The notes beneath the pieces were generated by a model. The model was given only the letters and a program-made list of their open reading frames with translations, was not told where the DNA came from and searched no databases. A DNA stretch of 64,000 bases from Hygrophila difformis (taxonomy: Eukaryota; Streptophyta; Magnoliopsida; Lamiales; Acanthaceae): NCBI GenBank assembly GCA_030278955.1, contig JAOANR010000006.1, positions 52,976,915-53,040,914 of the forward strand, read 5' to 3'. Position 1 is the stretch's first letter. Each line of letters begins with the position of its first letter. Below, piece after piece: positions 6,274 through 63,600 of the stretch. The position numbers and the translations under genes are program-made.

Positions 6274-7515
6274 CGTGGTAATCCCGAGACAAAGTCCATC
6301 GAGATGCTATCTCACTTCCAACTTGGAATCTCTAGTGGCTGCATCAGTCCTAAGGGTTTATGTCGCACTGCCTTAACCCTTTGGCAGGTGAGGGATTTCG
6401 CCACGAAGTCTGCCACTTCCTTTTTCATTCCCGGCCACCAGTAGATCTTCTTCAGATCCTTATAAAGTTTGTCACCTCCGGGATGCACTGAATATGGTGT
6501 GTTGTGCCCTTCATTCATCAACCTTTGCTTCAACTCGGCACACTTTTGAGGCACACACCATCTCCCTTTGAAGCGAATGCTTCCATCCTCATGGATAGTG
6601 AATCCTATTGCCTTACCCTCGGCAATATACTCCTTTATCCTCTCCAATTTCGCGTCGCCCGGTTGGGTGAGTCTAATCTCGTCCAATATTGGAGTTTCTA
6701 CAACCATCGCGTTGATCGTTTCACTCACTGTGCCCGGATGCACAAGTTCCACATCCAATCTCGCCAAATCCATATACAATGCCGGCGGAATTACCAACGA
6801 GTTTGTCACGTGTTGGGTCTTCCGGCTTAGGGCATCGGCTACCACATTCGCCTTCCCCTCGTGGTAGGATATCTCCAAATCATAATCCTTAATAAGTTCC
6901 AACCACCTTCGCTGTCTCAGATTCAACTCCTTCTGAGTGAATATATAATTCAAGCTCTTGTGGTCGGTGAACATTCGACACTTTCGCCCATAAAGATAAT
7001 GTCTCCATATCTTTAGAGCGAAAATGACTGCTGCCAACTCCAGGTCATGTGTCGGGTAATTTTCCTCGTGAGGTTTCAGTTGGCGTGATGCATATGCAAC
7101 GACCCTCGAGTCTTGCATCAAGATACAACCTAAACCTTCCTTTGAAGCATCGCTGTAAACTTCGAAGTCACCATTCTCTGATGGTAGCGTCAATATGGGT
7201 GTGGTTGTGAGTCGTTTCTTCAGCTCTTGAAACACAGCCTCACACGCCTCTGTCCACTCGTATTTTACTCCCTTCTTCAGTACATGGGTTAAAGGACGTG
7301 CGATTTTCGAAAAATCTTTCACGAACCGTCTATAGTACCCGGCTAATCCAAGGAAACTCCTTATCTCAGTTGGGCTCTTTGGCGCTGCCCACTCTGTCAC
7401 GGCAGAAACTTTTGCCGGATCCACTGAAACTCCATCAGGGATACTATGTGTCCAAGAAATGCTACCTCCTTCAACCAAAAATCGCATTTGGACAATTTGC
7501 CGTACAGTTGATTGT
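6274..7515 (-). pseudogene. Ty3/gypsy reverse transcriptase end, RNase H and integrase start (E0)
   Basis: Read on the minus strand from 7515, this begins in the reverse transcriptase thumb ([13 protein letters not shown]). It continues through the connection ([18 protein letters not shown]), RNase H ([31 protein letters not shown]) and the integrase zinc-binding domain ([21 protein letters not shown]). A frameshift lies near 7435. One zinc-finger Cys appears replaced by Ser (AKSLTCQ), and a TGA stop interrupts the frame near 6312 where relatives have Trp. Everything upstream of the thumb is missing and an opposite-strand cassette begins abruptly at about 7515. Closest relative in the window is the plus-strand pol at 25787-27189. 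Certain as a gypsy pol remnant. Confidence 0.92.
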
Positions 7516-8679
7516 GTAAAACAAAAGAAAATAAGGAAAATCGAAAAAAATAAAACATTTTTTGTGGCCCGCGTGGGGATCGCACGGTCACAGCAGTCTG
7601 AAAAAAAATGGGGCTCGCGCCCCGCGCGAGCCATTCCTCCCCTTTCCACATCCGAGGCCTCTTCCAACTCGTTCCCAAATTCGTTCTCCAGTTCTCAAAT
7701 TCTCCCGGTTCCGACTTCGATTTTGCTTTGCAATGTATGTATCTACTACTTTCACTTATCAATTTCAAATTTTATGCTTTGAATAACTTGATTTTTAGAC
7801 GGACTTTGAAATTAGGGTTTATGTGTGAGAATTGAGGATTTGTGATTTTTAGGCTTGATTCGTGCGGATTAGCGAGTTTATGTGATACTTGATGCTATTT
7901 TTGTTGATTAGGAAGTGTTTGAGCAACAATGTATACCTATTTTGGGGAAGTTTTTTTTTTTTTTTTAACTAGATTTTAGGTTTTAGGAAGAATATGAAAT
8001 TTCTCAATTTATGTTGGTATTGCGGGCATGAAAATGGTTCATTGTTGTTGTTGGTTGTCACATTTTGATGATGAGTTGTTGCTGGAGTAATTGTTTCAAC
8101 TTGTGGACAATTTCGTGTAGTTTGAGAATAACATAGAGATTTGATGTTTTTCGCACTTAACGTGTTCGACGAAATGCCCCAAATGGGTTTGGAACTTGTT
8201 TTGGTATGTTTCTTGTTTAACTTGCCCTTTCAGTACGGATTACACATGTTGGACGTTTATGTTGATGTTTCCCTTATGCATTTTTTTCGATATCTTGTGC
8301 ACGGATTCTAGCCTTATAAATGGTTGTGGGCTTTTCGCAGGATGTTGCTTTTCCTTTGGGTTGTCTTGGCGTCTCTCATGTGCCCTCCAGGGGCCAAGAG
8401 ACGGGCCACTCGGCATGACGCAGCTGGCCCTAGCACTGCTGCTCCGGTGATGCCGGATGTTGATGACAGTGAGTCTGAGGAGGACGAGGAGCAGCGGGGC
8501 CCGAGACTCAGGGTCTTCCTGACGAGGTGCGTCCCCGCCGGCACGATAGACATCGGTTCGCGACGATGGCCTCTCAGGAGTTCTATTTCGACGAGCTTCG
8601 TCGGAACAGGGCTTATGTTCCGGAGAGAGGGATGTATCCTCGTCATGTAGACGATGACAGGGTTAGGGTGGTTTTGGAC
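7515..8679 (+). pseudogene. Antisense gene cassette in E0: plant transposon-protein gene, 5' part
   Basis: This block runs opposite to E0. It has a GC-rich start with a perfect 9-bp-stem hairpin (7612-7632), a first exon, a likely intron 7735-8340 (GTATGT...TTTTCGCAG) and a second exon with ATG at 8342. The product starts with a short hydrophobic run, then a basic stretch (AKRRATR) and an acidic stretch (DDSESEED), and enters a domain seen more completely at 42684-44013. One frameshift near 8510 separates the N-terminal part from QEFYFDELRR. The gene is cut at 8679 by insertion of E1. Homologous cassettes occur at 30990-33405 (minus) and about 41850-44650 (plus). Family assignment (Transposase_32-like, PF20167) is by motif memory only. 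Confidence 0.75.
7735..8340 (+). other. Predicted intron in the antisense cassette (E0 copy)
   Basis: Donor GTATGT and acceptor TTCGCAG bound 606 bases of T-rich sequence. The homologous boundaries in the other two cassettes give 633 and 622 bases, and exon 2 begins with the same GATGTTGCT in all three. Conservation of both splice sites supports a real intron. Confidence 0.7.
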
Positions 8680-14800: not shown

Positions 14801-15987
14801 TAAGAAGACACTTGTTTGATTGGGAATTAGGAGTGTGGGATAATTTTATTCAGTGTATCAACCAAGCTCGGATGAACAGGTTTTTGGGGGATAGAATTAG
14901 ATGGAAACATGAGAGGAGCGGAAAGTTCTCAACGAGTTCATGCTGGAGGCGTTTGGAGGCTGCTGGTGTCGATGATATGAGGTGGTTTTTTAATAAAATG
15001 TGGAAGGTAAAATGTCCTATGAAAGTGAAGGTGTTGGTATGGAAGATATTTCACAATGCACTTCCAGTGAGAGAGCTGTTGGTCAGGAGAGGATGTGTTC
15101 AGGTAACAAATTGGATGTGTCCCTGCTGCGGTGTGGAAGTTGAAACACTGGATCACTTGTTTTGTCAGTGTAAGGAGGTACGTGATTTATGGTATTATGC
15201 TTTAAATTGGTTTGGATTGGAATGGATGGCTCCAGGGAAGGCAGTAGAAATGATGGTCGGATGGTTTGATTGCCCTATTAAATGGAAAAGAAAGAAGGCT
15301 TGGTATTTGACAGGCCTAGCAATTTTTTGGTCTGTATGGAAGCTTCGTAATGAGGTGGTTTTCAAAGGAGCACGGTTTGATAAAAGAATGGCGGAGGAGA
15401 TGGTTAAATGGAGGGTTGGTGTATGGTGGCATGCAGATGAGGGAGGAGGTGCGGTAAACTGGTCTGAACTGCAAATTGCTAGCCCTGGAGAGTTGACAAT
15501 TTCCGGAGATCGCCGAAGTTGTGTGCCGAGGGGTCTGTTGGAGTGGGAGCACCCAGATAGTGGATGCTGGAAAGTAAATACCGATGGGTCGTCGCTTGGT
15601 AACCCGGGAGCTGCTGGAGTAGGTGGTGTAATTAGGGACGATAGTGGAAAGGTTATATATATTCTGTCGGACTATATTGGGCTCAAAAACTCCAATGAGG
15701 CTGAATTTGCAGCGGTGAGTAGAGTATGCAATGCTGTATTATGTGAGCATGGATTCCCTATCCCCATGTTGATCTTTGAAAGTGACTCTCAGAATGTGGT
15801 CCATTGGTTGAAGGAGCCGGACAAAGTTCCATGGAGATTTAATGAGTACATGAGATCTGTTATGACTATTTTCAGATGTGGGGGTTATGTGAAAGTTCAA
15901 GACACTTTTAGGGAAAGGAATGCTTTAGCGGATTATTGGGCTAGAAGAGGTGCGACTGGGAATGAGAAATTGGAGGTGTGGCTATGA
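11831..15987 (+). pseudogene. LINE ORF2: endonuclease, reverse transcriptase, zf-RVT, RNase H
   Basis: This is the replication protein for target-primed reverse transcription. Order: apurinic-like endonuclease (ITCNLRGLNG, CFQEIKM, LGDFNAVIGEGER, SDHYPV; 11849-12540), then reverse transcriptase (PGSDGFNIEF, FITLIPK, EYRPISLL, KLDFEKAYDNVSW, GLRQGDPLSPYLF, YADDTVLF; 13140-14330), then a Cys/His region (CPCCGVEVETLDHLFCQC; near 15120) and a C-terminal RNase H (VNTDGSSLGNPGAAG with the later SNEAEF and SDSQNVVHWL motifs; 15570-15960). The RT active site YADD is intact. Lesions: shifts near 12155, 12750 and 14375, and stops near 13139 (TGA) and 14330 (TAG). The RNase H tail is typical of many plant L1s. 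Confidence 0.92.
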
Positions 15988-30989: not shown

Positions 30990-33405
30990 CGAGTCATCAA
31001 TCAACCGCATAAACTACGACAGAACAATTCAACCGCATTTCTAGAGACAATAATCAAAACAGATAACCAGGCAGTGATACAACGAAAGCAAAAACTACAA
31101 ATCACAGTCATTAGGATCATCGTCATAACAACTGAACAAAATATTTCTACTACGAACCCTAAATGAAAATGCAAAGACGAAAGATCACTGATCAGGAGGC
31201 GGGAACTGCCGACGCATGTACTCATCCATCTGTCGCATCTAGGCGTACATGTCAGTCATAGTGGCCTGCTGCTATACCTGTCTCGTAGTAATCGTATCCA
31301 TACGAGCCTGGTAAAGATCCATCCTGGCATCCAAGGCGTCGTACCGAGCATCTAGAGCATCACAACGAGCATGCCCGGCGGCGAACCCAGCATCTATACT
31401 AAGCTGCATCCCTTGCATCATCTGGAGCATCTGCGTCATCTCCTGACCCTGCTGTGGGACCACAGGAGGTGGAGGTGGAGGTGGCTGCTCCGGGGGAACA
31501 ACTAGAATCAACCCACCATCGTCGGGTTGCGGGCGAAGTACAGCCCGAGACGCTCCACGCCGCAAGGCATTACGCCGGACAGTGTAAGTCGGAAGACGGT
31601 AATGCTCACCCGCAGCTAACTCGTAAGGGTCCGTCTTCGGCGTCGTACGGATCCCCTGGGCGGCGCATAAACCACAAATGAGGTGAACGTGAGTAATCAC
31701 CCTACTCCCTCGCCCTCGTCGCAAGCCTCTCAGATTGTCCTCAATGCAAGCTCCCACATTTACCCTACCGCCCCGAGCGATAAAGCAAATGGTCTCATAG
31801 ACATGATCTATGACGATATGGCTCTGGGTAATCGGCCGGACGCGTCCTAACCCTAGCTGAGCGAGAACACGCCAAGCAGTGTCCATCGACGTCAACCGCA
31901 GCTCGTGGTCATGCTCGGTCTGCGGGGGTGCATCGGTGCACAAGACACCCCATGCGGGAGCAAGTACACGGCCCTCAGGCTGTGGCCGGAATACGCCATC
32001 ATCAGGCAGACCGAAATAGAGGTTGATCGCCCGAGCACTGAAGTCTAGGTGGCGACCACAAACCCAGACCTGAGATAAGTCGTCGTGCTCCCCAAGACCG
32101 CCAATGTTGGCGATGACCTCCATGGCTAGATAACTGGAGGCAATGCTCTCGGGATGGCGTGCGATTCCGGTCCACTGAAGATGCTCCAAAAACGCACTGA
32201 CCCTGTCATCACCCACATGATCAACAAACATGCCTCTCTCAGGAACATAAGCTCTAGTCCGACGAAGCTCGTCGAAATAGAACTCCTGCGAGGCATCGTC
32301 CTGAATCGATGCCTATCCTGCCGGCAAGGACGCTCCTCGTCAGGGAGATCCCTGAGTCTCGGACCCCGCTCCTCGCCCTCCTCAGACTCGCTGTCGTCTA
32401 TATCCGGCATCACCGAGGCCGCAGCACTAGAGCTTGCCTTGCCCCGCCGTGTGGCCCGTCTCTTGGCCCCCGGAAGAACCATGAGAGACGCCCAGACAAC
32501 CCATAAGAAAAGCAACATCCTGCAAATACCCAATACCAATTATAAGGCTAATTTCCACACAATAATTATCAAGCGTAAATACGCAAAAACATCAAATATA
32601 TTCTTCCAACGTGAGTAAACTAAGAGGACATCAAATCCAATAGTTCATCAATACAAACCGGAAGGTAACCAAACCAAAAGAATGTGCCGAAACAAATTCC
32701 AAAACCCATTTTGACATTTCGTCGAACACGTTATGTGCGCAATAAACCAAATCCAAAATTTACTTACAAACACATGGAATTTGTCCACAAATTGAAACAA
32801 TTCCTCAAGCAACGACTCATCATCAAAATGTGGCAACCAACAACAACCATGAACTCATTTCCATGCCTGCAATACCAACATAAATCGAAAATTCCATATC
32901 CTTCCTAAAAAAAGAAAAAAATCAAAAATCTAGTAGGAACTTTCCCAAGTTAGGCATACATTGGTGCACAAACATTTCCTAAACAAGAAAAATAGCATCA
33001 TCATATAAACTCGCTAATTTCGCACGAATCAAGCCTAAAAATCACAAATCCCCAATTCTCACACATAAACCCTAATTTCAAAATCCTCCCAAAAATCAAG
33101 TCATCCAAAGCATAAGAATTGAAATTGGTAAGTGGAAGTGGTAGATACATACCTTGCAAAGCAAAATCGAGGTCGGAACCGGGAGAACTTGAGAACGAGA
33201 GAACGAATTTGAGAGAAAATGTGGAGTGGTCTCGGATGGGGAAAGGGGTGAAATGGCTCGCGCCCCTTTTTTTTCAAACTGTCATGACCGCGCGGTCTCC
33301 GCGCGCTAAACCCCCTTCACCGCGCGGACACCGCGCGGGTCACAGAAGTTTTTTTTTTTATTATTATTATTTTTGATTTATCTTATTTTCTTTTGCTTTA
33401 CGCTA
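30990..33405 (-). other. Antisense gene cassette in E4
   Basis: The sense sequence matches the E1 leader up to about 30985 (CCCTAAACCCTAAA...). The cassette then runs on the minus strand to about 33405, where integrase sequence begins. It contains a GC-rich 5' part with CCGCGCGG palindromes (33285-33345), a predicted exon 1, an intron 33152-32520 (GTATGT ... TTTGCAG, 633 bases) and the coding exon. The non-gene parts (30990-31184 and 32525-33400) hold nothing else I recognise. Confidence 0.75.
31185..32518 (-). pseudogene. Plant transposon-protein family gene (antisense in E4)
   Basis: ATG at 32518 on the minus strand. Short hydrophobic start (MLLFLWVVWASLM), basic stretch, acidic stretch, then the domain with DDRVSAFLEHLQWTG, LDFSARAINLYFGLPDD, DHVYETICFIARGG, VNVGACIEDNLRG and ITHVHLICGLCAAQGI, a proline run (PPPPPPPVVP) and a C-terminal coiled coil with tandem heptads (RCDALDARYDALDARMD). 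Lesions: a frameshift near 32290, and TAG at 31272 and near 31237 before the natural TGA at 31185. The pattern resembles the Pfam 'putative plant transposon protein' (Transposase_32) group; biochemical role unknown. Confidence 0.8.
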
Positions 33406-34354
33406 CTCACTTAGCCCGAGCGTACATCGATAATGTGGTACGACGAATGGGGTACCACACGACATCATTTCTGACAGAGACAGTAGAATTGTCTCTCATT
33501 TTGGACGGAGTTACAAAAAGCTCTCGGTACTCAAATCAAAATGAGCACCGTATTCCACCCAATGACGGATGGACAAACCGAGAGAACAATCCAAACACTA
33601 GAAGACATGCTGAAGGCATGTATTTTGGAATTTAAAGGAATTTGGGAAAATCATTTACCCTTAATTGAATTTTCCTACAACAATAGTTACCATGCTAGCA
33701 TCGGCATGGCACCTTTCGAGGCACTGTATGGATGCAAGTACCGAAGCCCGTTGAACTGGGAAGAGAGCAATAGGACTATGGAAGTTGGACCACAACTTGT
33801 TAAGGACATGGCGCAACAAATCAAGATAATCCAAGGAAAGATGAGAGCCGCTCAAGACCGGCAAAAGAGTTATGCCGACGTGAGACGACAAGACTTGGAA
33901 TTTCAAATTGGCGATAAAGTCGTGCTGAAGGTATCACCAATGAAGGGTGTGATGCGCTTCGGCAAACGAGGGAAATTGAGTCCACAATACATAGGACCTT
34001 ACGAGGTTCTAGGAAGAGTCGGTAATCTAGCATATCGACTAGCCTTAACACCACAACTGGCTCGAGTGCACGATGTGTTCCACGTATCACAATTGAAGAA
34101 GTATGTGCACAAATGACCCATGTATTGCAACCGGAAGAAATTGAATTGGATGATGACTTGAGCTACGAGGAAATTCCGGTGCAAATTCTCGACTTCAAGG
34201 AGAGAGTGACAAGGAATAAAGCCGTCAAAATGGTCAAGGTTATGTGGTCTAACCACGAAACCGAGACGACAACATGGGAGTTAGAGGCAGACATGAGGGA
34301 TCGTTACCCAACCATATTCCAAGACGATGCAACCACAGTTATGGGGACATAACT
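33406..34354 (+). pseudogene. Integrase C-terminus and chromodomain (E4)
   Basis: Starts inside integrase (LARAYIDNVVRR) with a shifted frame to 33540, then is open as DGQTERTIQTLEDML, SYNNSYHASIGMAPFEALYGC, the GPY/F-type region (QYIGPYEVLGRVGNLAYRL) and VHDVFHVSQLKKY. A chromodomain follows in the next frame (34113-34352: YEEIPVQILDFKER, VKVMWSNHETETTTWELE). The C-terminal chromodomain, which in chromoviruses directs integration to heterochromatin, identifies the lineage. Its junction to the antisense cassette matches that in E5. Confidence 0.9.
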
Positions 34355-38507: not shown

Positions 38508-41292
38508 TGTAACACCCCGGATTTGATAACCCAGGCCGAGGTGTCACCGCCGCATTCCCCTAGCAAGACACGGCTTCCCGAGCTCGCTAAGGAAACGCAA
38601 GGCTTGTGGGTATGTAAAAGATTTAAAACGTTCAAGATATAGTCCGGAAATTTATAATACTTAGTACGATAGTCGAAATTATCACGTGCAGAAAATAAAT
38701 AAAGTAAGTGCAGCGGAAAGTAAAATCACGGCCAACATGGCCAAATCCTCGGGTTTAACAGACCCGGTAAAACAGTACGATGCAGAAATAAAAGGTTCAT
38801 AAATAATTCCCCCAAGTGCATGCGTATGCGTCACTCGACATACTCTGTAAAAGGAAAAATGACAACGGTTGTCAGTATAAAAATATACTGAGTAAGTTAA
38901 TCCCTAACTAACAAATAAAAGGGGTTACCAGTGTTTAAAACTAAAGATTTCGCTTACCGTACGAGAATTTAAAAATACATGATTTATTAGCAGCGGAAAA
39001 TTATGATTAAAGAACTTAATTTAAAAAGCGAAACTTAAAGCATAATTTAAGGTGCATAAAATTTAAATACGTAATTAAAGACAGGATAAATACGATTTAA
39101 GCATAATGAAACACTCACACGAGTCTTTTACTTTTCATCCCGTAAACTAAGAAGAGGACACCATACCGGGAGATCACTAACGAGGCAATCTCAACATAGG
39201 ACCACTAACGAGGCAGTCCAAACAATGGGAGACCACTAACGAGGCAGTCTCAAAGATAGTAGGACCACTAACGAGGCGATCCACAAAGATAGTAGGACCA
39301 CTAACGAGGCGATCCACAAAGATGGTAGGACCACTAACGAGGCAGTCCACAAATACAGCGCGCGAGATCACTAACGAGGCAATCTCAGATAGTAAGGAGA
39401 CCACTAACGAGGCAGTCTCAAAGATAATGATAGTATGAAGATCGGCTCAGCCTAGTGAACGGGATTTTTCGAAAGTTCGTATTTCAAGTTATCAAAGGAT
39501 CGATATCGCGTTTTCATAGTTCGAGTTTTCTCAAGTTCGAAAAATCCTATTCGAGGCAGTTCACGCCTTTCTTAATTTAAAATTCGTTTTTCCTCCAAAA
39601 ATTCTGAAACTTGGCCAGTAATTCAAAAACACACACACGAACAACTTTCATGTTTTAAGTTTTTGGAAATAAGGTTCCGAAGTGAGTTAAAATTTGAGTT
39701 TATTGCAAAGAATACTTTACGTCTTAAAAACTGTTGTCGTCACAGGTTCGTGTAACGCCGATTAAAAATTCATTTCAAAACCAATCGATGTGAAATTTTT
39801 ACAGTAACTACACGACACATTAAGGAACAACTTTCATGTTTTAAGTTTTTGGAAATAATGAATTCTTGGTACTCAAAAATCGTGTGCAACTCACTGCATG
39901 CTCATGGCCCTTAAAACGAATTCAAAACAGTTTCAAAGACTTGGCCGTTTGACATATCAAATGAACACCAAAATTCGTGAAATTTTGTAGGCATAATCTA
40001 GACACAATTATCTACAACTTTTGTTTAGAAATGCAAAGTTAAATCATTCGAAAAATGGGTGAAAAACATGCACCAAGTTGAATGATGGAATCTGTCACAG
40101 ATTTAAACGGTTCGGTTCAATACAGAAAGTTCATGGCGAAAATTGGGATAGCAAAACTTAATGTCAATGGCTGAAATTTGGACACAAGATAGATAAAGGT
40201 GTTAGGAACAACTTTTATGTTGAAAAGTTTTCGGTTCGAATTCCCGAAGGTCGAGTTTTTGGCGAGTCTTTAAAATTGGACGAAAATAGGGTTTTTGAAA
40301 ACCGATTTTTGTTACAAGCCTATATCTCGAGATTTAAACAACAAACAACCGCAAAAATTTGTGAGTAAGGTGTTAACTTACTTAGAATGATGTTAGGGTC
40401 GCTGGATTGGGTTTCCGGATGTCCTAGGGTCACGACGAACGGCCAACTTCTCCGATCGCTTTTTGTTCGTTTTCCGACGGGAAATCGTAGTAAGGAAAAA
40501 GGGTTAGAATATGAGTTTTTGAGACCTATGGACGAATTGAAACGTTGCACAATGGCTTACCAAGAGTCTAGAGAGCAGGGGCTTGTCCCGGTCGTCCCGT
40601 CGTCGCCGGAATACTCGCCGGAAAGTGGTGTCGAAGGAGTTTTCAACTTGGAGAAGGAAGATGGAGTGTCTAGGGTTTGTTTACTGAAAATAAGGGGTAG
40701 GGGGCGCCCAATGCCGAGTTTATGCACTTCCCTACTGCTGGGATCCGTTTACCATCGAAGAGAATGTTAATTTAGGCAAGAAAATCGCCATGGAAGGAAA
40801 GTTTACACTTTCAGCACCTCTGGCGCGCTGGTGGCGCGCACCTAAGCTTTTGTCCGCGCGGAGCACGCGTGCCAGCCCTGGCGTCGCGACGCCCTTGGCC
40901 GCGCGGTGGCCGCGCGGCGGCGCGCGGACAGCGCGGGCCGGCCGGACCGGCCGGTTCGGCTCCGCGTGTTCCGTCGGGTCTTTCCTTGCTTTCCCCTATC
41001 GATTTTCTACGTGTTAGCTCGATTCCTTGGGTCGTCTCTAGCCCGAAATCCTTTCCTTAATCTCGTTGCGAGTTCGGCTTATCGCTCGCAACATTTCCGT
41101 ATCCTAATTGGCCTAGTCTAAATTGGTTCCAACTTCCCCTATCGTCCTTGTGGTCTAATTCGTGATATATTTTGTGATTTATTTCGTGACTGAACTTAGA
41201 AATTAGTTCTAAGCTGCCTACGTACCCTGTGAAGGGATCAAGTCATGACGTAGTTCAAAACAATTTGAATTTGTCTTTCCTCGGGTGTTACA
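38508..41292 (-). repeat. E5 3' LTR
   Basis: 2785 bp; on the minus strand begins TGTAACACCCGAGG and ends GGGGTGTTACA. Contains class A hairpins (39170-39419) and a CGCG-rich island (40850-40975). Small open frames in it are duplicated exactly in the other LTR and are not supported as genes. Confidence 0.95.
39170..39419 (-). repeat. Class A hairpin array, E5 3' LTR (eight units)
   Basis: Eight units of constant core CACTAACGAGGCA (plus strand) with arms GAGAT/ATCTC, GGAC/GTCC, GAGAC/GTCTC. Two units carry a GGACC/GATCC mismatch. Confidence 0.92.
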
Positions 41293-41308
41293 TCCTCCCC
41301 CCCTTAAG
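41293..41308 (-). promoter_or_regulatory. Polypurine tract of E5
   Basis: The minus strand reads CTTAAGGGGGGGAGGA directly before the LTR start TGTAACACC. It corresponds to PPT1 of E4 and E6, not PPT2. Confidence 0.85.
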
Positions 41309-41315
41309 AATACAG

Positions 41316-41640
41316 TTATGTCCCCATAACTGTGGTCGGGTCGTCCTGGAAGAGGGTAGGGTAACGTTGCCTCATGTCGGCTTCCAATTCCCAGGTTGTC
41401 GTCTCCGTCTCGTGGTTGGACCACAGGACCTTGACCATCTTTACAGTTTTATTCCTTGTCACCCCTTTCCTTGTAGTCGAGTATTTGCACCGGGGTTTCT
41501 TCATAGGTCAAGTCATCATCCAATTTGATTACGTCCGGTCGGAGTACATGCGACGTGTCGGGCACATACTTCTTTAGTTGGGGGTCGTGGAACACATTGT
41601 GGTCACGAGTAAACGGTGGTGGGGTCGTTAGTTAACATGC
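41316..41640 (-). pseudogene. Integrase tail and chromodomain remnant (E5)
   Basis: The minus strand reads VFHDPQLKKYVPD, then YEETPVQILDYKER, and after a shift VKVLWSNHETETTTWELE. These are the end of integrase and the chromodomain seen in E4. Between 41640 and about 41850 the sequence is only weakly recognisable as integrase. It is non-functional; it may remain because it lies next to the polypurine tract. Confidence 0.8.
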
Positions 41641-41937
41641 CGCTCTCATTTCCCTACGGAATTTCTTAGGGTCCCTAGGTATTTACGTCCCGGGGGTTTC
41701 CCGTAGTCCTGCGAAAGGAGGGCGTGAGGCAATTCCGCCGTCCTTGCCCGGAATAATGCCAGGCGATGCTCCCTGTCGACGTATTTCTCTGTCAATGTAT
41801 GCCCGGGTTCAGCGAGGAGCGTATAGCGAAAGAGATTGAGCAGAACAGGAAAGATAAAACTCCACCCGGGTCTCACGCGGTGGCCGCGCGTTGGCGCGCG
41901 GGGAGCGCGCGGCAATCCCCTGTTCGAAAAAAAATAG

Positions 41938-41958
41938 GGCTCGCGCTCCGCGCGAGCC
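41938..41958 (+). promoter_or_regulatory. GC hairpin at the 5' end of the antisense cassette (E5)
   Basis: GGCTCGCGC and GCGCGAGCC around a 3-base loop, in the cassette's presumed promoter/leader. The same stem occurs at 7612-7632 in E0 and half of it in E4 (near 33258). It could mark the transcription start region. Confidence 0.5.
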
Positions 41959-42060
41959 ACTTCCTCCATTTCCCATCCGAGAATACACCCCCAATTCTCT
42001 CTAAATCCGGCGAGTTACCTTCCCTTTTGCTCGATTTCGACTTCAATTTCACTCATCCAG

Positions 42061-42682
42061 GTACGATTCTACTAAACCCACTTCCTAATTTCAACTTTTG
42101 TGTTTTGAATGATTCGATTTGTGAAGAGATTTAGGAAATTAGGGTTTGTGTACAAAAATTGGGGGTTTATGATTTTTAGGCTTGATTTGTGCAATTTAGC
42201 AAGTGTATGTGGCAATTGTTGTTTCTCTTGTTGCCTTGCCTATGTTTATGTTATAATGTGTTTATGTTTTTGGCAAATTCTTGTTGAATTCGAATCCTTA
42301 GAAAGGCTATGAAGTTATTGATGCTTGGTTGCTATTGGGGTGTGATTATTGGTTTGTTCCCTCGTTGTTTAGTGCTGTAGGATTTGCCGTATTGTTATTA
42401 GAATGATTGTTTCGTTCTGTGGGCGATTTCCGTGTGTTGTTAGTAACTTAGGTTTTGGTTTATTGTGCACATAACGTGTTCGACGAAATGCCACATAGGG
42501 TTTAGGCACTAGTTTTAGCATATTCTTTGTCTAGGTCACCTCCTGGTTGGTCTTAGTAAACGGTAGGATTTGTTGTTCTTACGGTACATTCACGTTGGGA
42601 TTATATATTAATGCCCTATTCGTATTTTCGCTTGACTTCTGTGTGGGACTTAGTCTTATAATTGGTGTTTGGTAACTTGCAG
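42061..42682 (+). other. Predicted intron in the antisense cassette (E5)
   Basis: Donor CAG/GTACGA and acceptor ACTTGCAG/GATGTT; 622 bases, T-rich, boundaries homologous to those in E0 and E4. Confidence 0.7.
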
Positions 42683-42683
42683 G

Positions 42684-44013
42684 ATGTTGCTCTTTTTGTG
42701 GGTCGTTTTGGCGTCTCTCATGTGTCCTCCGAGGACTAGGAGACGGGTTGCTGATGAGGCTGGCCCCAGTCATGCTGCTCCGGCGATGCCGGATTTCGAC
42801 GAGAGCGAGTCTGAGGAGGATGAGGTGCAGAGGGGCCCGCGTCTCAGGGGCCTCCCGGATGCGTCCTCACCGGCATGACAGGTTCCGGTTTAGGACGAGG
42901 GCTGCCCAGGACTTTTATTTCGACGAGCTTCGTCGAAACAGGTCTTACATCCCTGAGAGAGGCATATATCCTCTTCATATGGGCGATGACAGGGTCAGTG
43001 CGGTCTTGGAGTATTTACAGTGGACTGGTCTGGCACGTCACCCCGAGGGCGTCGCCTCCGGTTATTTGGCTATGGAGGTTATTGCCAACATCGGCGGTCT
43101 CGGGGAGGGTGACGATCTATCCCGAGTATGGGTCCGTGGTCGCTATCTCGACTTCAGTGCTCGGGCGATCAACGTCTATTTTGGCTTGCCCGACGATGGC
43201 GTGTTCCGACCCCAGCCTGAGGGGCGCGTTCTTGCTCCTGCGTGGAACACCTTATGCACCCTAGTGCCTCCTGCGTTCGAGCACAGTCATGAGCTTCGTT
43301 TGACGTCGGTGGACTCCCCTTGGCGAGAGCTCGCTCAGCTATGGTTCGGGCGTGTCCGGCCGATGTCCCGGAGCCACATTGTCTTGGATCACGTCTACGA
43401 GACCATTTGCTTCATCGCGCGGGACGGTAGGGTGAATGTAGGGGCTTGCATCGAGGACAACTTGCGGGGTATGCGCAGAGGACGAGGGAGCAGGGTGATT
43501 ACCCATGTTCACCTCATCTGTGGGTTGTGCGCGGCACAGGGGATTCGCACTACACCGGAGACAGATCCGTACGACCTAGCACCTGGCCGTTGCTACCGTA
43601 TTCCGTCTTATGCGGAGCGGCGTAGCGCCTTACGTCGTGGGGCTCCCCGTGCTGTACTTCGCCCGCATCCTGATGACGGCGGCCTGATCCTCGTTGTACC
43701 ACCGGAGCAGCCACCCCCTCCTCCAGTGGTTCCACCTCCTGCTGGGGCACCTCCTGCCGTGGCACCTCAGGGGCAGGAGATGATTCAGATGCTGCAGATG
43801 ATGCAGGAGATGCGGGTCGGTATGGACGCCGGGTTTGCAGCTGGGCAGGCTCGTTATGACGCCCTCGACGCTAGGTTGGACCTCTATCAGACCCGCATGG
43901 ACTCGTTTGCTACGAGGCAGGCTCAGCAGCAGGCCACCATGTCCGACATGTACGCCTATGTGCGGCAGATGGACGACTTCATGCGCCGACAGTTTCCGCC
44001 TCCCGATCAGTGA
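42684..44013 (+). CDS. Plant transposon-protein family gene (antisense in E5), best copy
   Basis: ATG at 42684 right after the predicted intron. Hydrophobic start, basic stretch (RTRRRVADE), acidic stretch (DESESEEDE), then a gap of about five bases near 42861 that shifts frame relative to the other copies. From there it is open to TGA at 44013 for about 380 codons. Domain landmarks: FDELRRNRSYIPERG, VLEYLQWTG, YLDFSARAINVYFGLPDD, SHIVLDHVYETICFIARDG, VNVGACIEDNLRG, HVHLICGLCAAQGI. Then a proline-rich linker and a coiled coil (QMLQMMQEMRVGMDAGF; DALDARLDLYQTRMD) ending FPPPDQ. It resembles the Pfam Transposase_32 group. No catalytic residues can be named; role unknown. It lies opposite to the element's own transcription. 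Confidence 0.8.
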
Positions 44014-44257
44014 TGTCTCCCTTTGGTTTCGTGTTTTCGTTTAGGTTTTGCGTTTAGACGTACCTTGTTTAGGCTCCTCCTTATGAGAACGTCTCTGTTG
44101 TCTGGGATTTGTGGTTTATATTTTCGTTGTGTTATTGCTTAGTTATGTGTTTGACATGTGTGTGGGTCGCCCAACAATACTTGCACTGTTGCTTGACTAA
44201 ACCGCTTCAAGGAACTTAGATAAACTAGTGTGATAAGATATAAGGGGTAGGGTTTAT

Positions 44258-44424
44258 ATGTTAAATAAAATTAGTCTTTTAATAGGTATCAATTTATCAG
44301 GGTTTTCTTGTAAAAGTTGTTGGAATTTATTTATTTATATGTACATATTGTATATATTTTATTATCTTTATTATTATTATTTCCATTGTTATTATTTTTA
44401 TATTTTTATTTTCATCTATTATCA

Positions 44425-44455
<31 letters not shown>

Positions 44456-44560
44456 TTTTTTTTATTTTTATTTTTATTTTTATTTTTTTATTTTTTCATT
44501 TTTTTATTTTTTTATTTTTTATTTTTTATTTTTTTATTTTTTTTTTTTGGTTGTAGGTTT
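44258..44560 (+). repeat. T-rich low-complexity tract (TTA/TTTA/TTTTTA)
   Basis: A simple-sequence region between the end of the antisense gene and ORF0. Its Phe/Tyr/Leu open frames are artefacts of composition. Confidence 0.9.
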
Positions 44561-44699
44561 CCCTCCTTGATTATGGTAGTTAAAGAACTAAATAAAATGC
44601 ATGGAATAAATTTAAATAGGCTTGTATTTTATTACTCAAGAATTTTGGTTTACAAGCATTCGAAATAGAAATAGCAATGGTGCATCAATATGGATCCCT

Positions 44700-45089
44700 A
44701 AATCTAGGGTGACTAGGCAGGTATATCCTCGATGGGTTCGTCCTCGTCGCTGGATATGTCAATGGGAATGGGCGTCCCCACCGGGCTCGGGCTCGGAGGG
44801 AAGATGTCGGCCTCTAGGCCCAGTAGCTCAGCTGCTAAGTGTCCTATTTGCATCATCAGTTCGTTATCCTTGTTTGGAGCGCAACCACTAGTGTTTGGAG
44901 TTCGGCGACTTGGGCCTTGAGTTGGGTTATTTCGTGATGGTCAGCTTCCCTAAGATTTCTCAGATAGTCCACGTTACTCTCTAGATGCCCCACTCGAGCT
45001 TTGAAGTGATTGACATGCTGTTGGGACTCGAGGTATGCATTGGTCAGTTTCATCATCAGGTTGGTCATGTTTGCGTTCGGTTCGGCCAT
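44700..45089 (-). pseudogene. ORF0 of E5
   Basis: Minus strand, start at 45089: MAEPNANMTNLMMKLTNAYLE, then a coiled-coil-like run (VGHLESNVDYLRNLRE, LKAQVAELQTLVVAL). A single frameshift near 44880 leads into NELMMQIGHLAAELLGLEADI and the conserved acidic end ISSDEDEPIEDIPA. The start is about 320 bases after the primer site. Conserved in a very young element that lacks gag, so it is either useful or part of an RNA signal. Confidence 0.75.
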
Positions 45090-45407
45090 CTATTGTCAAC
45101 AAGGGAGGTTAGAGTTAGATGTTTTTCAGGCAAAGTTAAGATATGCATAAATTTAAATCTATATGCAACATGCAAGTGCAAGTCCCTTCCCCATAAAATT
45201 TAGTTTAAAATAAATTGCTAAAGGTTGGGCCTCTATAGTGGGCCAAAATCTAATATTTCTTGGGCTAAGATTTGGGCTATGTAAAAAGGATTATAGATTT
45301 TTGGGCTAAAAATAGTACTAGTAGTCAAATAAATAATTTAAAGGAAATAACACTTGGGCTTAAAAATATTGGTTTAAAATAATAGTAGTAGCTTTAAAAA
45401 TTTTCCG

Positions 45408-45420
45408 GGCTCTGATACCA
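45408..45420 (-). promoter_or_regulatory. Primer binding site, initiator tRNA-Met (E5)
   Basis: The plus strand reads GGCTCTGATACCA, the complement of TGGTATCAGAGCC, 3 bases inside the LTR boundary at 45424. It confirms the minus orientation. Confidence 0.92.
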
Positions 45421-45423
45421 ACT

Positions 45424-48209
45424 TGTAACACCCCGGATTTGATAACCCAGGCCGAGGTGTCACCGCCGCATTCCCCTAGCAAGACACGGCTTCCCGAGCT
45501 CGCTAAGGAAACGCAAGGCTTGTGGGTATGTAAAAGATTTAAAACGTTCAAGATATAGTCCGGAAATTTATAATACTTAGTACGATAGTCGAAATTATCA
45601 CGTGCGGAAAATAAATAAAGTAAGTGCAGCGGAAAGTAAAATCACGGCCAACATGGCCAAATCCTCGGGTTTAACAGACCCGGTAAAACAGTACGATGCA
45701 GAAATAAAAGGTTCATAAATAATTCCCCCAAGTGCATGCGTATGCGTCACTCGACATACTCTGTAAAAGGAAAAATGACAACGGTTGTCAGTATAAAAAT
45801 ATACTGAGTAAGTTAATCCCTAACTAACAAATAAAAGGGGTTACCAGTGTTTAAAAACTAAAGATTTCGCTTACCGTACGAGAATTTAAAAATACATGAT
45901 TTATTAGCAGCGGAAAATTATGATTAAAGAACTTAATTTAAAAAGCGAAACTTAAAGCATAATTTAAGGTGCATAAAATTTAAATACGTAATTAAAGACA
46001 GGATAAATACGATTTAAGCATAATGAAACACTCACACGAGTCTTTTACTTTTCATCCCGTAAACTAAGAAGAGGACACCATACCGGGAGATCACTAACGA
46101 GGCAATCTCAACATAGGACCACTAACGAGGCAGTCCAAACAATGGGAGACCACTAACGAGGCAGTCTCAAAGATAGTAGGACCACTAACGAGGCGATCCA
46201 CAAAGATAGTAGGACCACTAACGAGGCGATCCACAAAGATGGTAGGACCACTAACGAGGCAGTCCACAAATACAGCGCGCGAGATCACTAACGAGGCAAT
46301 CTCAGATAGTAAGGAGACCACTAACGAGGCAGTCTCAAAGATAATGATAGTATGAAGATCGGCTCAGCCTAGTGAACGGGATTTTTCGAAAGTTCGTATT
46401 TCAAGTTATCAAAGGATCGATATCGCGTTTTCATAGTTCGAGTTTTCTCAAGTTCGAAAAATCCTATTCGAGGCAGTTCACGCCTTTCTTAATTTAAAAT
46501 TCGTTTTTCCTCCAAAAATTCTGAAACTTGGCCAGTAATTCGAAAACACACACACGAACAACTTTCATGTTTTAAGTTTTTGGAAATAAGGTTCCGAAGT
46601 GAGTTAAAATTTGAGTTTATTGCAAAGAATACTTTACGTCTTAAAAACTGTTGTCGTCACAGGTTCGTGTAACGCCGATTAAAAATTCATTTCAAAACCA
46701 ATCGATGTGAAATTTTTACAGTAACTACACGACACATTAAGGAACAACTTTCATGTTTTAAGTTTTTGGAAATAATGAATTCTTGGTACTCAAAAATCGT
46801 GTGCAACTCACTGCATGCTCATGGCCCTTAAAACGAATTCAAAACAGTTTCAAAGACTTGGCCGTTTGACATATCAAATGAACACCAAAATTCGTGAAAT
46901 TTTGTAGGCATAATCTAGACACAATTATCTACAACTTTTGTTTAGAAATGCAAAGTTAAATCATTCGAAAAATGGGTGAAAAACATGCACCAAGTTGAAT
47001 GATGGAATCTGTCACAGATTTAAACGGTTCGGTTCAATACAGAAAGTTCATGGCGAAAATTGGGATAGCAAAACTTAATGTCAATGGCTGAAATTTGGAC
47101 ACAAGATAGATAAAGGTGTTAGGAACAACTTTTATGTTGAAAAGTTTTCGGTTCGAATTCCCGAAGGTCGAGTTTTTGGCGAGTCTTTAAAATTGGACGA
47201 AAATAGGGTTTTTGAAAACCGATTTTTGTTACAAGCCTATATCTCGAGATTTAAACAACAAACAACCGCAAAAATTTGTGAGTAAGGTGTTAACTTACTT
47301 AGAATGATGTTAGGGTCGCTGGATTGGGTTTCCGGATGTCCTAGGGTCACGACGAACGGCCAACTTCTCCGATCGCTTTTTGTTCGTTTTCCGACGGGAA
47401 ATCGTAGTAAGGAAAAAGGGTTAGAATATGAGTTTTTGAGACCTATGGACGAATTGAAACGTTGCACAATGGCTTACCAAGAGTCTAGAGAGCAGGGGCT
47501 TGTCCCGGTCGTCCCGTCGTCGCCGGAATACTCGCCGGAAAGTGGTGTCGAAGGAGTTTTCAACTTGGAGAAGGAAGATGGAGTGTCTAGGGTTTGTTTA
47601 CTGAAAATAAGGGGTAGGGGGCGCCCAATGCCGAGTTTATGCACTTCCCTACTGCTGGGATCCGTTTACCATCGAAGAGAATGTTAATTTAGGCAAGAAA
47701 ATCGCCATGGAAGGAAAGTTTACACTTTCAGCACCTCTGGCGCGCTGGTGGCGCGCACCTAAGCTTTTGTCCGCGCGGAGCACGCGTGCCAGCCCTGGCG
47801 TCGCGACGCCCTTGGCCGCGCGGTGGCCGCGCGGCGGCGCGCGGACAGCGCGGGCCGGCCGGACCGGCCGGTTCGGCTCCGCGTGTTCCGTCGGGTCTTT
47901 CCTTGCTTTCCCCTATCGATTTTCTACGTGTTAGCTCGATTCCTTGGGTCGTCTCTAGCCCGAAATCCTTTCCTTAATCTCGTTGCGAGTTCGGCTTATC
48001 GCTCGCAACATTTCCGTATCCTAATTGGCCTAGTCTAAATTGGTTCCAACTTCCCCTATCGTCCTTGTGGTCTAATTCGTGATATATTTTGTGATTTATT
48101 TCGTGACTGAACTTAGAAATTAGTTCTAAGCTGCCTACGTACCCTGTGAAGGGATCAAGTCATGACGTAGTTCAAAACAATTTGAATTTGTCTTTCCTCG
48201 GGTGTTACA
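45424..48209 (-). repeat. E5 5' LTR
   Basis: 2786 bp, nearly identical to 38508-41292, including the class A array (46087-46336), the CGCG island (47770-47890) and identical spurious frames. Confidence 0.95.
46087..46336 (-). repeat. Class A hairpin array, E5 5' LTR (eight units)
   Basis: Identical to the array at 39170-39419. Confidence 0.92.
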
Positions 48210-49620: not shown

Positions 49621-50966
49621 TCAGGAAGAAAGTCGTGCAAGCTGTGTCTGTGTACTATCCCCCTTCTTCTTTATCTCGGCTCTAAGCTGATGAATCTCAT
49701 AAGTCATCCTATTAATTGCAATCTCTGCAGGCTTTGCACTAGTACTAGATGTACTAGGTATATCAGCATGATGAGTAGGTGCCCTACGAGGTGAAGTCGG
49801 GTAAGCTAGCTCTGCACATCTTACTTCAGGCTTGGTATAGAAATTTTTGAAAGAGATAGGAGGTTTCTTTTTCAGATCATGAGCATAGGCTCTTAAATGC
49901 ACTCCAGCTCTCTCACAAAGTGCCCAAATAAGTGCAGGGAATCCAAGTACAGTTCTTGCAGCATCAGATGCCATGCTATCCAGCTCATGTGCTATCATCT
50001 CTCCAATATCAATAGGCAATCCATTCTTCACACAATACACAAAGTACAACTCCTCTGCACTAGGCTGTGAAGTGTGCGAAGTAGGATAAACCTTATGCTT
50101 ATAGAGCATGTAGATCTGGTATAGTGGGGCATCCATCGAAGTAGCAACAACTCTTTGATTGTTTGTACCATCTATGTAGACAACTTTTCTTTGCTGCCCA
50201 AACATCTCTTTTAAGATCCTTTTCTCCAACTCCAGTCCTCCTTCCTCTTCATAAATAGGCTCGTGAAAATTTTGCTTCTTTGTAGCCGGCCAAGAGACAT
50301 CCACAGTGCCATAAAGTTGATTGATTATTACAGGACCATACGGCACAGGCACTCCCTAAACCATGAAGTAAAGTGTTCATGCCGGGAATTACATAGGAAC
50401 TGCCTAGTGAGCTCCCAGGAATAAATTCCGTCAGGATGCTCAGCAAATTTCATCCATCCTCGACTCATCAGAGCATCATGAACCGAAATTCGCTCCATGT
50501 CATCTTCAATGAACCCTTTATCTTTGATAATCCATCTTTTCACCATTCTTTGATAATAGGATTATGCTGTTCGGTTTATAAAAATAGCTGGATTGAAGAT
50601 GTCTCCAGTTAGTTCCTGCAGAGGAGGTGTATCGTCCTTCCTATTATGACTTTTTCTCTTTGTTTTAGAACCACGTGAACGTTTAGTCCCCTCCGGTGAA
50701 ACTTCTTCTGGAGATTCAACTTCATCCTCTTCCTGCTGTGGATCATCCTCTTCCTGTTGAGCAGAATAGAAGGGAACCTCGTCTCCCTCCACAGAATCAG
50801 CACCCAGCAGGTCATTCACGAACATATCTTCATTACCGACAGCAGTTGGCTTCGGATTAGGTTCTCTAATAGCAAGGGGCTGCGATTGGGGAACCTCCTT
50901 GGCTTTCTGCTTCTTTCCGGCATTGTTCCTCTTGTTTCCTTGGGTTGATTTCCTCTTAGGTCTCAT
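49621..50966 (-). pseudogene. Gene Y: plant transposon-protein family (Transposase_32-like)
   Basis: ATG at 50966 (MRPKRKSTQG), with a basic then acidic N-terminus (QQEEDDPQQEEDEVESPEE) and a nuclear-signal-like KRSRGSKTKRKSH. The domain follows with KRWIIKDKGFIEDD, ALMSRGWMKFAEHPDG, YSWELTRQFL, PIDIGEMIAHELDSMA and FPALIWALCERAGVH, and then a Ser/Thr-rich linker and a short C-terminal helix (INRMTYEIHQLRAEIKKKG). Lesions: an in-frame TAA at 50562 and a frameshift near 50355. About 445 codons. This order (basic start, GW motif, DIG(E/K)xI, FPxLIxxLCxxAGV) is what I recall for the family named 'putative plant transposon protein'; enzymatic activity unknown. Confidence 0.8.
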
Positions 50967-60615: not shown

Positions 60616-63600
60616 ATGCAACAACCACCTTTTCAAGATCAACCTATGCAAGGAAATGAAATATCCAATGCACAACCTCTTCGTAGGAGTTCTCTCTTTC
60701 GTCAGTTGCTTGAGGCACACGTTCGTAGAATTATTTCCTGATAATTTTCAAGCTGTATGAACAAATTTCTATTTCTCATTGGGTTCTTATTCATTATGTT
60801 AATTTAATCTATATTGTTGAAATGGTTGGCTTTTTAGGATACAGAACACGTCGAATCCAGGAGTCTTCCACGGCGTACTCTTCAACAGCGTATTGCTGAA
60901 CGTCGCAGCCATGCAGCCGAGCGCCGTGCTTCTACATCAAATGGACCACATGTACGCAGACGCAATATTAGCAATGCTCCCTGGGAAGCTCCGCTCCCTT
61001 CTATTTGCAATGATTGCAGTGCATTAATATTCTACGGCGAGTCCAAAGGATTATGTTGTGCCTTTGGAACATTTGCCTTAGATCCATTACTTGCACCTCC
61101 TATTCTTCAAGACCTTTTCCTTCACAGACATGCCTTATCGGATCATTTCCTTACATATATCGCACATACAACAATTCATTCTCTTTCTCAATCTTGGGAG
61201 TCCAATACGATGTTAATTTGCAGCGCAATGAACAAAATGTGTATGTATTCCGTGTCAATGGAACGATGCACCATTTCATTAGTTCCTTATTCCCAACTGC
61301 TGAATCGCACAAGAATCTCAAACTTTATTATAGTGATCCTGGAATTGAACTTGAAAGACGAATGCATGACAAGGCGGACTTAAACAAAGATCTTGTTGGT
61401 TTACTAATAAATATTACAGCATCAAATCCTTACGCAAGATTCTTCAGGCAACTTCATCATATCCCATGTCTGAATGAATATAAAATGTTCTTAAAAACAT
61501 CTAACCGCTTGGACAAACGAGTCTATAACCTTCCAATTGTTGATGATGTTTCTATTATATGGCAAGATGGACAATCAAGTGATGCTGACTTAGTTCGTGA
61601 TATACAAGTGTATCCATTCGATGGAATGCCCAAGAAAGTATCTTATTACTCTTTTGCATATGATCCTGTTCAGTACCCTTTAATCCATGCATATGGACAA
61701 CCGGGTTGGCAACCAGATACAATTAAGAAAAAACGTAATGCAAATGATGGTAATGCTGCTGACACCGCCGAAAATTTTTTTGCCAGCCTAAATGAGCAAT
61801 CTCTTGAAATAGGACAAGAACGTATGTTCTTTTAACACCTTTACTTTATTCTTTCTGATGCATTTACGTTCTTGCTTTAATGCCTTCTTTTCGTCCTTTC
61901 CACCAGCGCCACCCAAAAAGCAAAGATGGATGGATAAAAGTCATGTCTCCATTCGTGAGTACTACTCCTAACGGCTGCAGATTCGTCCATCTTTGCCAGG
62001 CATCTTACTCAGGACTGGCCGTTTATTTTCAACAATATGTTGTTGACCAATATATCAAAATAGAAACTCAACGCTTGGACTTTTACAGATCATAACAAAA
62101 TCAAAAAAAACAAAGAATTGAAACCATGCAGGGAATTCAGGATGCTTTTAATTTACAAGGATTGGATGATCTAAATCAAATTGGAAAACCAATTGTCTTA
62201 CCCTCTTCTTTTATCGGTGGACCTCGTGATATGCATCGACGTTATATGGATGATATGGCTCTTGTTCAAAAATTCGGAAAACCTGACTTCTTCATTACAA
62301 TGACATGTAATCCGCAATGGATTGAAATTACACAACATCTTTCTCAAAATGATAATTGCACTAATCGGCCTGACTTGACAGCACGAATCTTCCGTATGAA
62401 ACTTGAAGAGCTTAAACATGAACTTTTCGACAAAGATCTATTGGGCTGTGTTTGTGCTTACTCATATGTGGTTGAGTTCCAAAAAAGAGGCTTACCACAT
62501 GTCCATATGTTATTAATTATGTATCCTGAAGATAAAATGGAAGATCCTTCACAATATGATAATTTCATTTCTGCTGAACTTCCGGATCCTACTACAGAAA
62601 AGTACTTGCACGATTTAGTTTCCAAACATATGCTTCATGGCCCTTGTGGAACAGATAATCCAAACAATGCTTGTATGGGTGATGGAAAATGCAAAAATCA
62701 TTACCCTAAAGAATTCAATGATCTTACAACACATGCTCCCAATGGCTATCCTTTATATCGTAGGCGAAATAACGGCTCAGTTGTGTTTTCACGAAACCGT
62801 TTACTAGACAACATATGGATTGTGCCTTACAACCTATACTTGCTTGCAAAATTTGATTGCCATATTAATGTTGAAATTTGTTCCAAAATAAAATTAGTCA
62901 AGTATTTGTATAAATATGTATACAAAGGTCATGACCCTATTGCCTTTTCAGTACGTGCCTCTGATCAAGGTCAACAAATTGATGAAATTACTGCATTTCA
63001 AACAGGCCATTGGGTTGCCCCCCAGAGGCATGCTGGCGTATTCTTGGGTTTCTCATGAATGCAATGCGCCCTGCTGTTATAGCACTTCAATTACACTTGC
63101 CAAATTATCAGTACACTACTTTTTCTACAACTGCTCCTATTCAAACAGTTGTAGAAAATAATCAAGCGCACCGTACCATGCTTACAGAATTTTTCCACAT
63201 CAATAACCATAATAGTTTTGCTAAAGAGAAAAACCTTTTATATAAAGATTTTTCAGAACATTTTGTATGGGATTCAATAAAGAAAGAATGGCATCAAAGA
63301 AAGTGTGGTACTGTAGTAGGGCGTATTGTCACTGCACGGCCAAATGAAAATGAAAGATAAAATCTACGACTGCTTTTACAACATCGTCGAGCACCAACAT
63401 CATTTGATGACATTAAAACTGTTAGTGGCACATTGTGTGAGACTTTTCGATCTGCATGCGTTGTCCTAGGCTTGCTAGAGAGTGACACAGCCATCATCGA
63501 TTGCCTAACAGAAGCATCACATTTTCAGCTTCCAAATTCCTTCTCGCAACTCTTCGCATCGATCCTCATCTTCTATAATCCTACTGAACCTCAAAAATTG

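Follow-up and report, generated by a model that had tools for sequence, protein, structure and literature searches.

In Ty3/gypsy long terminal repeat (LTR) retrotransposons of the Tat/Retand lineage, protein-coding additional open reading frames (aORFs) run antisense to gag-pol (TRP28, PF04195; Grande gene23, RIRE2, Retand); they occur outside the chromoviruses, downstream of pol and ahead of the 3' LTR, mostly belong to PF04195, are kept in most copies, are of unknown function, and in some cases are nuclear (PMC11963269, PMC7264820). The sunflower Ty3/gypsy element Athila 14 has a PF20167 aORF, which is a sense-strand ORF(+) outside the chromoviruses, and the same source describes a 5'aORF in Tekay elements (sunflower group 2, RIRE3, RIRE8, Retrosat-2, and FRetro3) (PMC11728184). 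Non-autonomous Athila elements of Arabidopsis are pol-less, with remaining ORFs under purifying selection and recombination between families (PMC2410132), and orchid 2-ODD elements have also been described (PMC9289625). Here we report on a 64,000-nucleotide (nt) stretch of the Hygrophila difformis genome (contig JAOANR010000006.1; "the window"), in which the probable chromovirus derivative E5 carries a PF20167 gene antisense to its own pol remnant; copies of the gene also occur in two other elements of the window, E4 and E0. The protein sequence encoded by this gene is under purifying selection, and we consider it reasonably probable, judging from sequence, that the gene is a spliced antisense accessory protein gene of trans-mobilized chromovirus derivatives that lack gag and reverse transcriptase (RT).

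Like the Retand-type aORFs, the E5 gene codes for a protein and runs antisense to gag-pol within an LTR element of the Ty3/gypsy group. Unlike them, it is flanked by a short 5' sense ORF on one side and a pol remnant on the other, and so stands 5' of the latter, in a probable chromodomain element; its product belongs to PF20167, with no PF04195 match in Pfam scans of the antisense-gene proteins; and it has a predicted intron in the 5' untranslated region (5'UTR). It shares with Athila 14 a PF20167 domain in a Ty3/gypsy LTR element, although Athila 3' aORFs and env-like genes are sense and 3' of pol, whereas the gene described here is antisense and 5' of the pol remnant. The Arabidopsis Athila families keep gag and env, in contrast to the antisense gene, with its predicted intron, of this probable chromovirus derivative. 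The short sense ORF that accompanies the antisense gene is coiled-coil-like, 122-199 amino acids (aa) long, and occupies the place of the Tekay 5'aORF, to which it is likened by position, not sequence; the sunflower Tekay 5'aORF measures 402 aa. Retand elements were already known to have antisense ORFs, Athila to have PF20167, and non-autonomous Athila to keep ORFs under selection; what may be new is the combination. Among the titles and abstract openings surveyed in the open-access literature, none described a chromovirus with an antisense PF20167 gene, which is weak evidence of absence; the term "PF20167" occurred in one paper of this literature, and the term "antisense" was not found in the available part of PMC6317226.

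E5 is a complete LTR insertion (window positions 38508-48209) with the target site duplication (TSD) AAATT on both sides and LTRs that are 99.857% identical over 2790 aligned nt. Since the primer binding site (PBS; 45410..45420, minus strand; TGGTATCAGAG on the minus and CTCTGATACCA on the plus strand) adjoins the right, 5' LTR (45424..48209, minus strand) and the polypurine tract (PPT; 41293..41306, minus strand; TCCTCCCCCCC as read on the plus strand) adjoins the left, 3' LTR (38508..41292, minus strand; ends TGTAACACC...GGTGTTACA), the element reads on the minus strand, and the gene at 42684-44013 on the plus strand is therefore antisense. In sense order, E5 consists of the 5' LTR, the PBS, the short coiled-coil-like ORF, an AT-rich low-complexity tract evident from the sequence (44280..44560, between the 3' end of the antisense gene and the short sense ORF), the antisense gene, a remnant of the 3' end of pol (41307..41815, minus strand), the PPT, and the 3' LTR. 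The pol remnant comprises a chromodomain end recognized by eye (TTWELEAD..YPLPG) and a short integrase piece (41795-41815, minus strand) that abuts the upstream boundary of the antisense gene, as in E4. The internal region (41293-45423) contains no long sense frame, and the E5 frames scanned gave no match to gag, protease, or RT; with its LTRs, PBS, PPT, and TSD, E5 fits a non-autonomous LTR element. The PBS, presumably of the tRNA-iMet type, and the PPT at its LTR ends accord with a Tekay/Del chromovirus; the clade name itself is one that we assume from the 5'aORF and the long LTRs, E5 being without RT. E5 is most likely a member of a young, repeated, non-autonomous chromovirus group of the Tekay/Del type. 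The initial annotation had the antisense cassette replacing gag and most of pol; gag is indeed lost, but part of the short sense ORF next to the PBS survives.

The first part of the antisense gene of E5 (41816..42060, plus strand) comprises its upstream boundary, a GC-rich segment with a perfect inverted repeat, GGCTCGCGC/GCGCGAGCC (41938), and the predicted 5'UTR exon; the stretch from 41802 to the intron donor is without ATG. The predicted intron (42061..42682, plus strand; CAG/GTACG...TTGCAG/G; 622 nt, 43% T) is followed by a single-exon coding sequence (CDS; 42684..44013, plus strand). Because the ATG comes one base after the acceptor, the intron is placed in the 5'UTR, a point on which the initial annotation needs correction. 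The GT-AG borders, the T-rich intron, and the conserved ATG after the acceptor are what suggest that the gene is spliced. The E4 copy (31057..33406, minus strand; ATG 32518, intron 32520-33152) meets integrase at ~33410, and the E0 copy (7513..8679, plus strand; intron 7735-8340, ATG 8342) comprises the 5' part only, most of the CDS being gone, is cut off at ~8679, and is joined to the RT thumb. The initial annotation's view of one gene in three elements, with GT...AG introns of 606-633 nt (exactly 622, 633, and 606 in E5, E4, and E0, respectively), a GC-rich start (leader GC 51-57%), a resemblance to Transposase_32, and a pol junction at integrase in E4 and E5 and at the RT thumb in E0, agrees with our analysis throughout. 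A 23-nt intron block, CACATAACGTGTTCGACGAAATG (42468-42490 in E5), is identical in E4 (32715-32737) and has one mismatch in E0 (8154-8176); its conservation exceeds that of its surroundings. In the direction of the gene it reads AHNVFDEMP, which resembles a pentatricopeptide repeat. All three window copies are broken by different N-terminal frameshifts: the E5 frame from the ATG stops after 64 codons, and E4 has two in-frame stops in addition.

The encoded protein has a hydrophobic N terminus (MLLFLWVVLASLM), a basic and an acidic stretch, the PF20167 (Transposase_32) domain, a proline-rich linker, and a C-terminal predicted helix. Its profile score is 45.9 bits in E5 and 46.2 bits in E4, just above the Pfam cut-off of 45, and 40.3 in the subfamily copy L074, which falls under that cut-off. 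Given the hydrophobic N terminus and the presence of PF20167 in an Athila aORF, the protein may have envelope-like ancestry. When the E5 stop-to-stop frame, which includes out-of-frame N-terminal residues, was run against a protein database, no relative was found among the 7994 candidates scored; an IMG/VR scan gave 11 pattern matches and 0 confirmed, and the single match in a PDB sequence search (E = 0.16) was not credible.

Genomic copies were sought in 915 Mb (246 contigs), and the copy figures rest on top-ranked matches. With the E5 protein as the query, the best 109 of 5511 candidates were scored, and all were 99-100% identical; the stop-to-stop frame was 454 aa long in 104 of these and free of internal stops in 108. 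Thirty loci ranked by protein score (L009-L038), a sample biased toward intact proteins, have the ~444-aa frame intact in 29 cases, the exception being E5 itself; a 444-aa ORF starts from the acceptor-motif ATG in 28 of them, and in L014 this frame is likewise open behind a variant of the motif. Since the protein-ranked list favors intact proteins, a query consisting of the intron only was run as well (best 40 of 1596 candidates scored, 30 fetched as L039-L068). In this second sample, which is biased toward young, E5-like copies and overlaps the first (L014 is L051), the frame is intact in 25 of 30 copies (24 by the motif test plus L051), and the 19-nt core of the conserved intron block is kept in all 30. 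In 29/30 intron-ranked copies, the gene is preceded by the PPT side known from E5 and by an LTR with 82-100% identity to the E5 LTR, and the pol-remnant side is retained in 29/30 protein-ranked copies. The PBS motif is visible in 12 of the 30 protein-ranked copies, many fetched stretches ending short of the PBS. LTR parts of four intron-ranked copies showed one mismatch per 736-760 aligned nt in every case. In two of four copies checked, the right LTR runs into a PPT and another internal region (L071 and L072, right LTRs of C6:42268397 and C5:13154641), which fits tandem LTR-internal-LTR arrays; antisense-gene matches 6920 and 7210 nt apart on C12 and C11 also fit such arrays.

Selection on the protein is evident both between and within subfamilies. 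Between E5 and E4, the ratio of nonsynonymous to synonymous divergence (dN/dS) in the coding frame is 0.099 (356 codons; dS 1.18, dN 0.117), and the other five frames give 1.0-2.3 with 7-18 stops. Coding on the element's sense strand over the CDS stretch was considered and dropped, since dN/dS exceeds 1 in the reverse frames and these contain 7-12 stops. Values close to that of E5 and E4 were obtained for intact copies that belong to separate subfamilies (L074-L010, 0.101 over 434 codons; L073-L074, 0.093; L073-L010, 0.140), and codons 2-13, which encode the hydrophobic start, differ among E5, E4, and E0 by 5 synonymous changes and 1 nonsynonymous change. Among the 24 intact intron-ranked copies (five that were not intact and L051 were left out), variants present in at least two copies comprised 6 nonsynonymous (N) and 24 synonymous (S) changes, compared with 17.8 N expected when the same changes were redistributed at random among sites with matching trinucleotide context (0 of 2000 simulations were as low); singletons comprised 33 N and 34 S (expected N, 44.1). 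Relative to the neutral expectation, N/S was therefore 0.17 for shared variants and 0.50 for singletons; the dN/dS near 1 in recent copies that the initial annotation had named as evidence against its proposal was not seen. The low N/S of shared variants together with the higher value for singletons matches selection during proliferation and relaxation after insertion. Divergence by region points the same way in 29 protein-ranked copies (CDS, 0.84%, a figure biased low by the protein ranking; leader, 1.7%; 3' region, 2.5%; intron, 2.6%; upstream, 2.6%; L037, with its unrelated upstream region, was excluded). Likeness between E5 and E4 is 0.745-0.79 in the CDS, 0.68 in the intron, 0.65 in the 3' region, and 0.61 in the leader. 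Taken together, these results indicate that the antisense gene is no neutral passenger.

The short sense ORF is also under purifying selection. Its region in E5 (44719..45089, minus strand; MAEPNANM...) encodes a coiled-coil-like product with an acidic tail. The frame is cut to 77 aa in E5 and is 122-132 aa long in 26 of the 30 protein-ranked copies. It occurs in three types, two of which differ by 17-24% from the E5 region, and dN/dS between types is 0.22-0.26.

The antisense gene has moved among element backbones. LTR identity to E5 splits 29 of the 30 intron-ranked copies into two classes, of 18 and 11 copies (L063, which has no LTR part, was left out). Between these classes, a 710-nt LTR part differs by 12.9% on average and the gene by 1.02%, and within them the gene differs by 0.99% and 1.04%. 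Given that a near-identical gene (1%) stands beside LTR parts that have diverged by 13%, it must have been exchanged between backbones, albeit with residual linkage (gene-LTR distance correlation of 0.52 in the more diverse class; otherwise 0.26 and 0.16). Mean gene distances are 1.3-1.7% across the sense-ORF types and 1.0-1.8% within them (L022, whose sense ORF is lost, and L037 were left out).

More distant subfamilies were found with the E4 protein (best 117 of 4451 candidates scored, 79-89% identical apart from E4 itself); among these 117 matches, 74 have no stop, and open frames of 449 and 460 aa recur. One copy of the 460 type (L074/L075, C6:37184300-37192134) has an intact 443-aa antisense gene with a predicted intron of about 605 nt (AAG/GTATGC...TTTGCAG/GATG) and a sense frame of 199 aa. 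Its sense strand also carries an open stop-to-stop frame that starts in the RT thumb, covers RNase H and integrase, and reaches the end of the chromodomain. This longer sense frame is 840 aa long by arithmetic over the two overlapping loci, its start codon not being identified, and its profile matches are H2C2, an rve core (30.8 bits; cut-off, 32.6), SH3_Tf2-1, and a weak Chromo below the cut-off (E = 0.006). Here the antisense gene joins RT where that of E0 does and stands where gag and the RT palm should be, which is an unusual non-autonomous design. A copy of the 449 type (L073, C2:29465528-29470335) has an intact 439-aa frame, and its upstream 1.2 kb, leader and first half of the intron included, is unlike E5 or E4. 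The gene tree separates L074, E4, and E0 from E5, L010, and L073 (support, 0.97-1.0), whereas the integrase junction is common to E4 and E5. Since the history of the junction conflicts with that of the gene, recombination at the cassette boundary is indicated; independent formation of the same junction is a less likely alternative. Another copy (L063/L037, C10, about 14889516-14891471) has an intact gene that keeps only 31 nt of its leader and immediately follows another ORF on its strand; that ORF contains a GRPFL..GALID stretch, and its end resembles an Athila-type gag-protease.

The explanation that we favor is that these elements are trans-mobilized derivatives of chromoviruses in which an antisense transcription unit took the place of gag, protease, and the RT fingers and palm; the unit would consist of an upstream region of its own, an intron in the 5'UTR, and a single exon that codes for a protein of ~440 aa. 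Sense genomic RNA would be copied and integrated in trans by the proteins of autonomous relatives, and the antisense mRNA would be spliced in the nucleus and then translated. The intron would survive retrotransposition because its splice sites are readable only on the strand opposite the sense RNA. Given that the antisense protein is selected, it should bring some benefit to its carriers, and we infer that it acts as an accessory factor aiding the spread of these elements; countering silencing or handling RNA or particles are possible roles (a guess). The short coiled-coil-like sense ORF would supply a second accessory product.

Several observations weigh against this explanation. The intron ranking favors young, E5-like copies, and LTRs so young mean that intact frames alone prove little. 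E5 itself is young by its LTRs, yet both of its ORFs are frameshifted, and if the breaks are older than the insertion, E5 may have moved without intact products of its own. The first 46-55 codons are under weaker selection (dN/dS 0.30-0.61), and two intact-frame copies (L063/L037 and L073) lack the usual upstream region. We know of no function for PF20167, and an AlphaFold model built from a three-row alignment reached a mean confidence (predicted local distance difference test) of 37 and was not used. Finally, the selection detected could in part be inherited from an unseen source gene or a repeatedly captured helper element.

In its full form, this last idea holds that the gene is selected in an unseen context, either an autonomous helper or a host gene, and is repeatedly loaded by recombination onto non-autonomous backbones. 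The shuffling of the gene among LTR and sense-ORF types and the conflict between junction type and gene tree speak for it, and the matches considered are the best 109-150 of thousands of candidates. We nevertheless regard it as rather unlikely, since the same LTR/PPT side recurs in 29/30 intron-ranked copies and since 29/30 protein-ranked copies share the pol-remnant side and have the short ORF region across the gene from it, which leaves no room for gag-pol. Less likely still is an antisense RNA that is itself active, through double-stranded RNA or transcriptional interference with the sense RNA, with the protein being secondary. Regulatory antisense transcripts have been discussed for plant LTR elements (PMC7264820), and the intron block is strongly conserved, but leader, intron, and 3' region all fall below the CDS in E5-E4 likeness, and CDS differences concentrate at synonymous sites. 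This codon-level constraint favors a protein-level function, the "trans-acting helper" among the roles offered by the initial annotation, over a purely antisense-RNA suppressor, although an RNA role may exist beside it.

A nested insertion, in which an independent transposon (for example, one with a PF20167 gene of the Athila type) landed in a chromovirus but took no part in the biology of the element, would fit the position of the L063 gene, 31 leader bases behind a GRPFL..GALID ORF on its own strand (presumably an Athila-like protease). The same boundary recurs, however, in several subfamilies with two pol junctions, and the unit was amplified together with the LTRs, which makes such nesting very unlikely, even though PF20167 is known from an Athila element (PMC11728184). 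Hardly any weight falls to a functionless fragment of a host or transposon gene captured once: the antisense placement, the broken state of all three window copies, and the abundance of PF20167 genes in the genome (best 150 of 9595 candidates scored) would suit it, but not dN/dS of about 0.1 across subfamilies, a shared-variant N/S at 0.17 of neutral, or 25/30 intact intron-ranked frames. The "captured gene" of the initial annotation was not demonstrated, and no non-element source of the gene was seen among the top-scoring matches listed.

Other features of the window and genome include a second PF20167 protein (49621-50355, minus strand; 60.3 bits), which adjoins E5 and in which the domain, a proline/serine linker, and a likely helix follow one another as they do in the E5 protein; it is only distantly related to that protein (23% identity over 129 aa) and was not counted with the E5 gene. 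PF20167 is hugely expanded in this genome (9595 first-look candidates), in families other than that of E5, and frames of 517-542 aa recur among the best 150 candidates scored. The window also contains an RT of the long interspersed nuclear element type with zf-RVT and RNase H (13142-15987) and a Helitron_like_N domain (62096-63055).

The trans-mobilized, gag- and RT-less elements proposed here bear on two questions, namely, whether the antisense protein is of importance and why an element that lacks gag and RT should retain a gene at all. One possibility, which we put forward tentatively, is that the antisense gene is a selfish module that, having taken the place of gag and RT, travels on the sense RNA of any chromovirus backbone onto which it recombines and is selected for raising the success of the LTR families that carry it, perhaps together with the short sense product. 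If so, a parasite at the level of the family would house a parasite or helper at the level of the gene. Since a single genome offers young copies, diverged subfamilies, a conserved intron position, a codon-level signal, and a gene largely unlinked from its LTRs, H. difformis lends itself, as a natural experiment, to the study of selection in non-autonomous elements and of how a gene with an intron can be carried through RNA.

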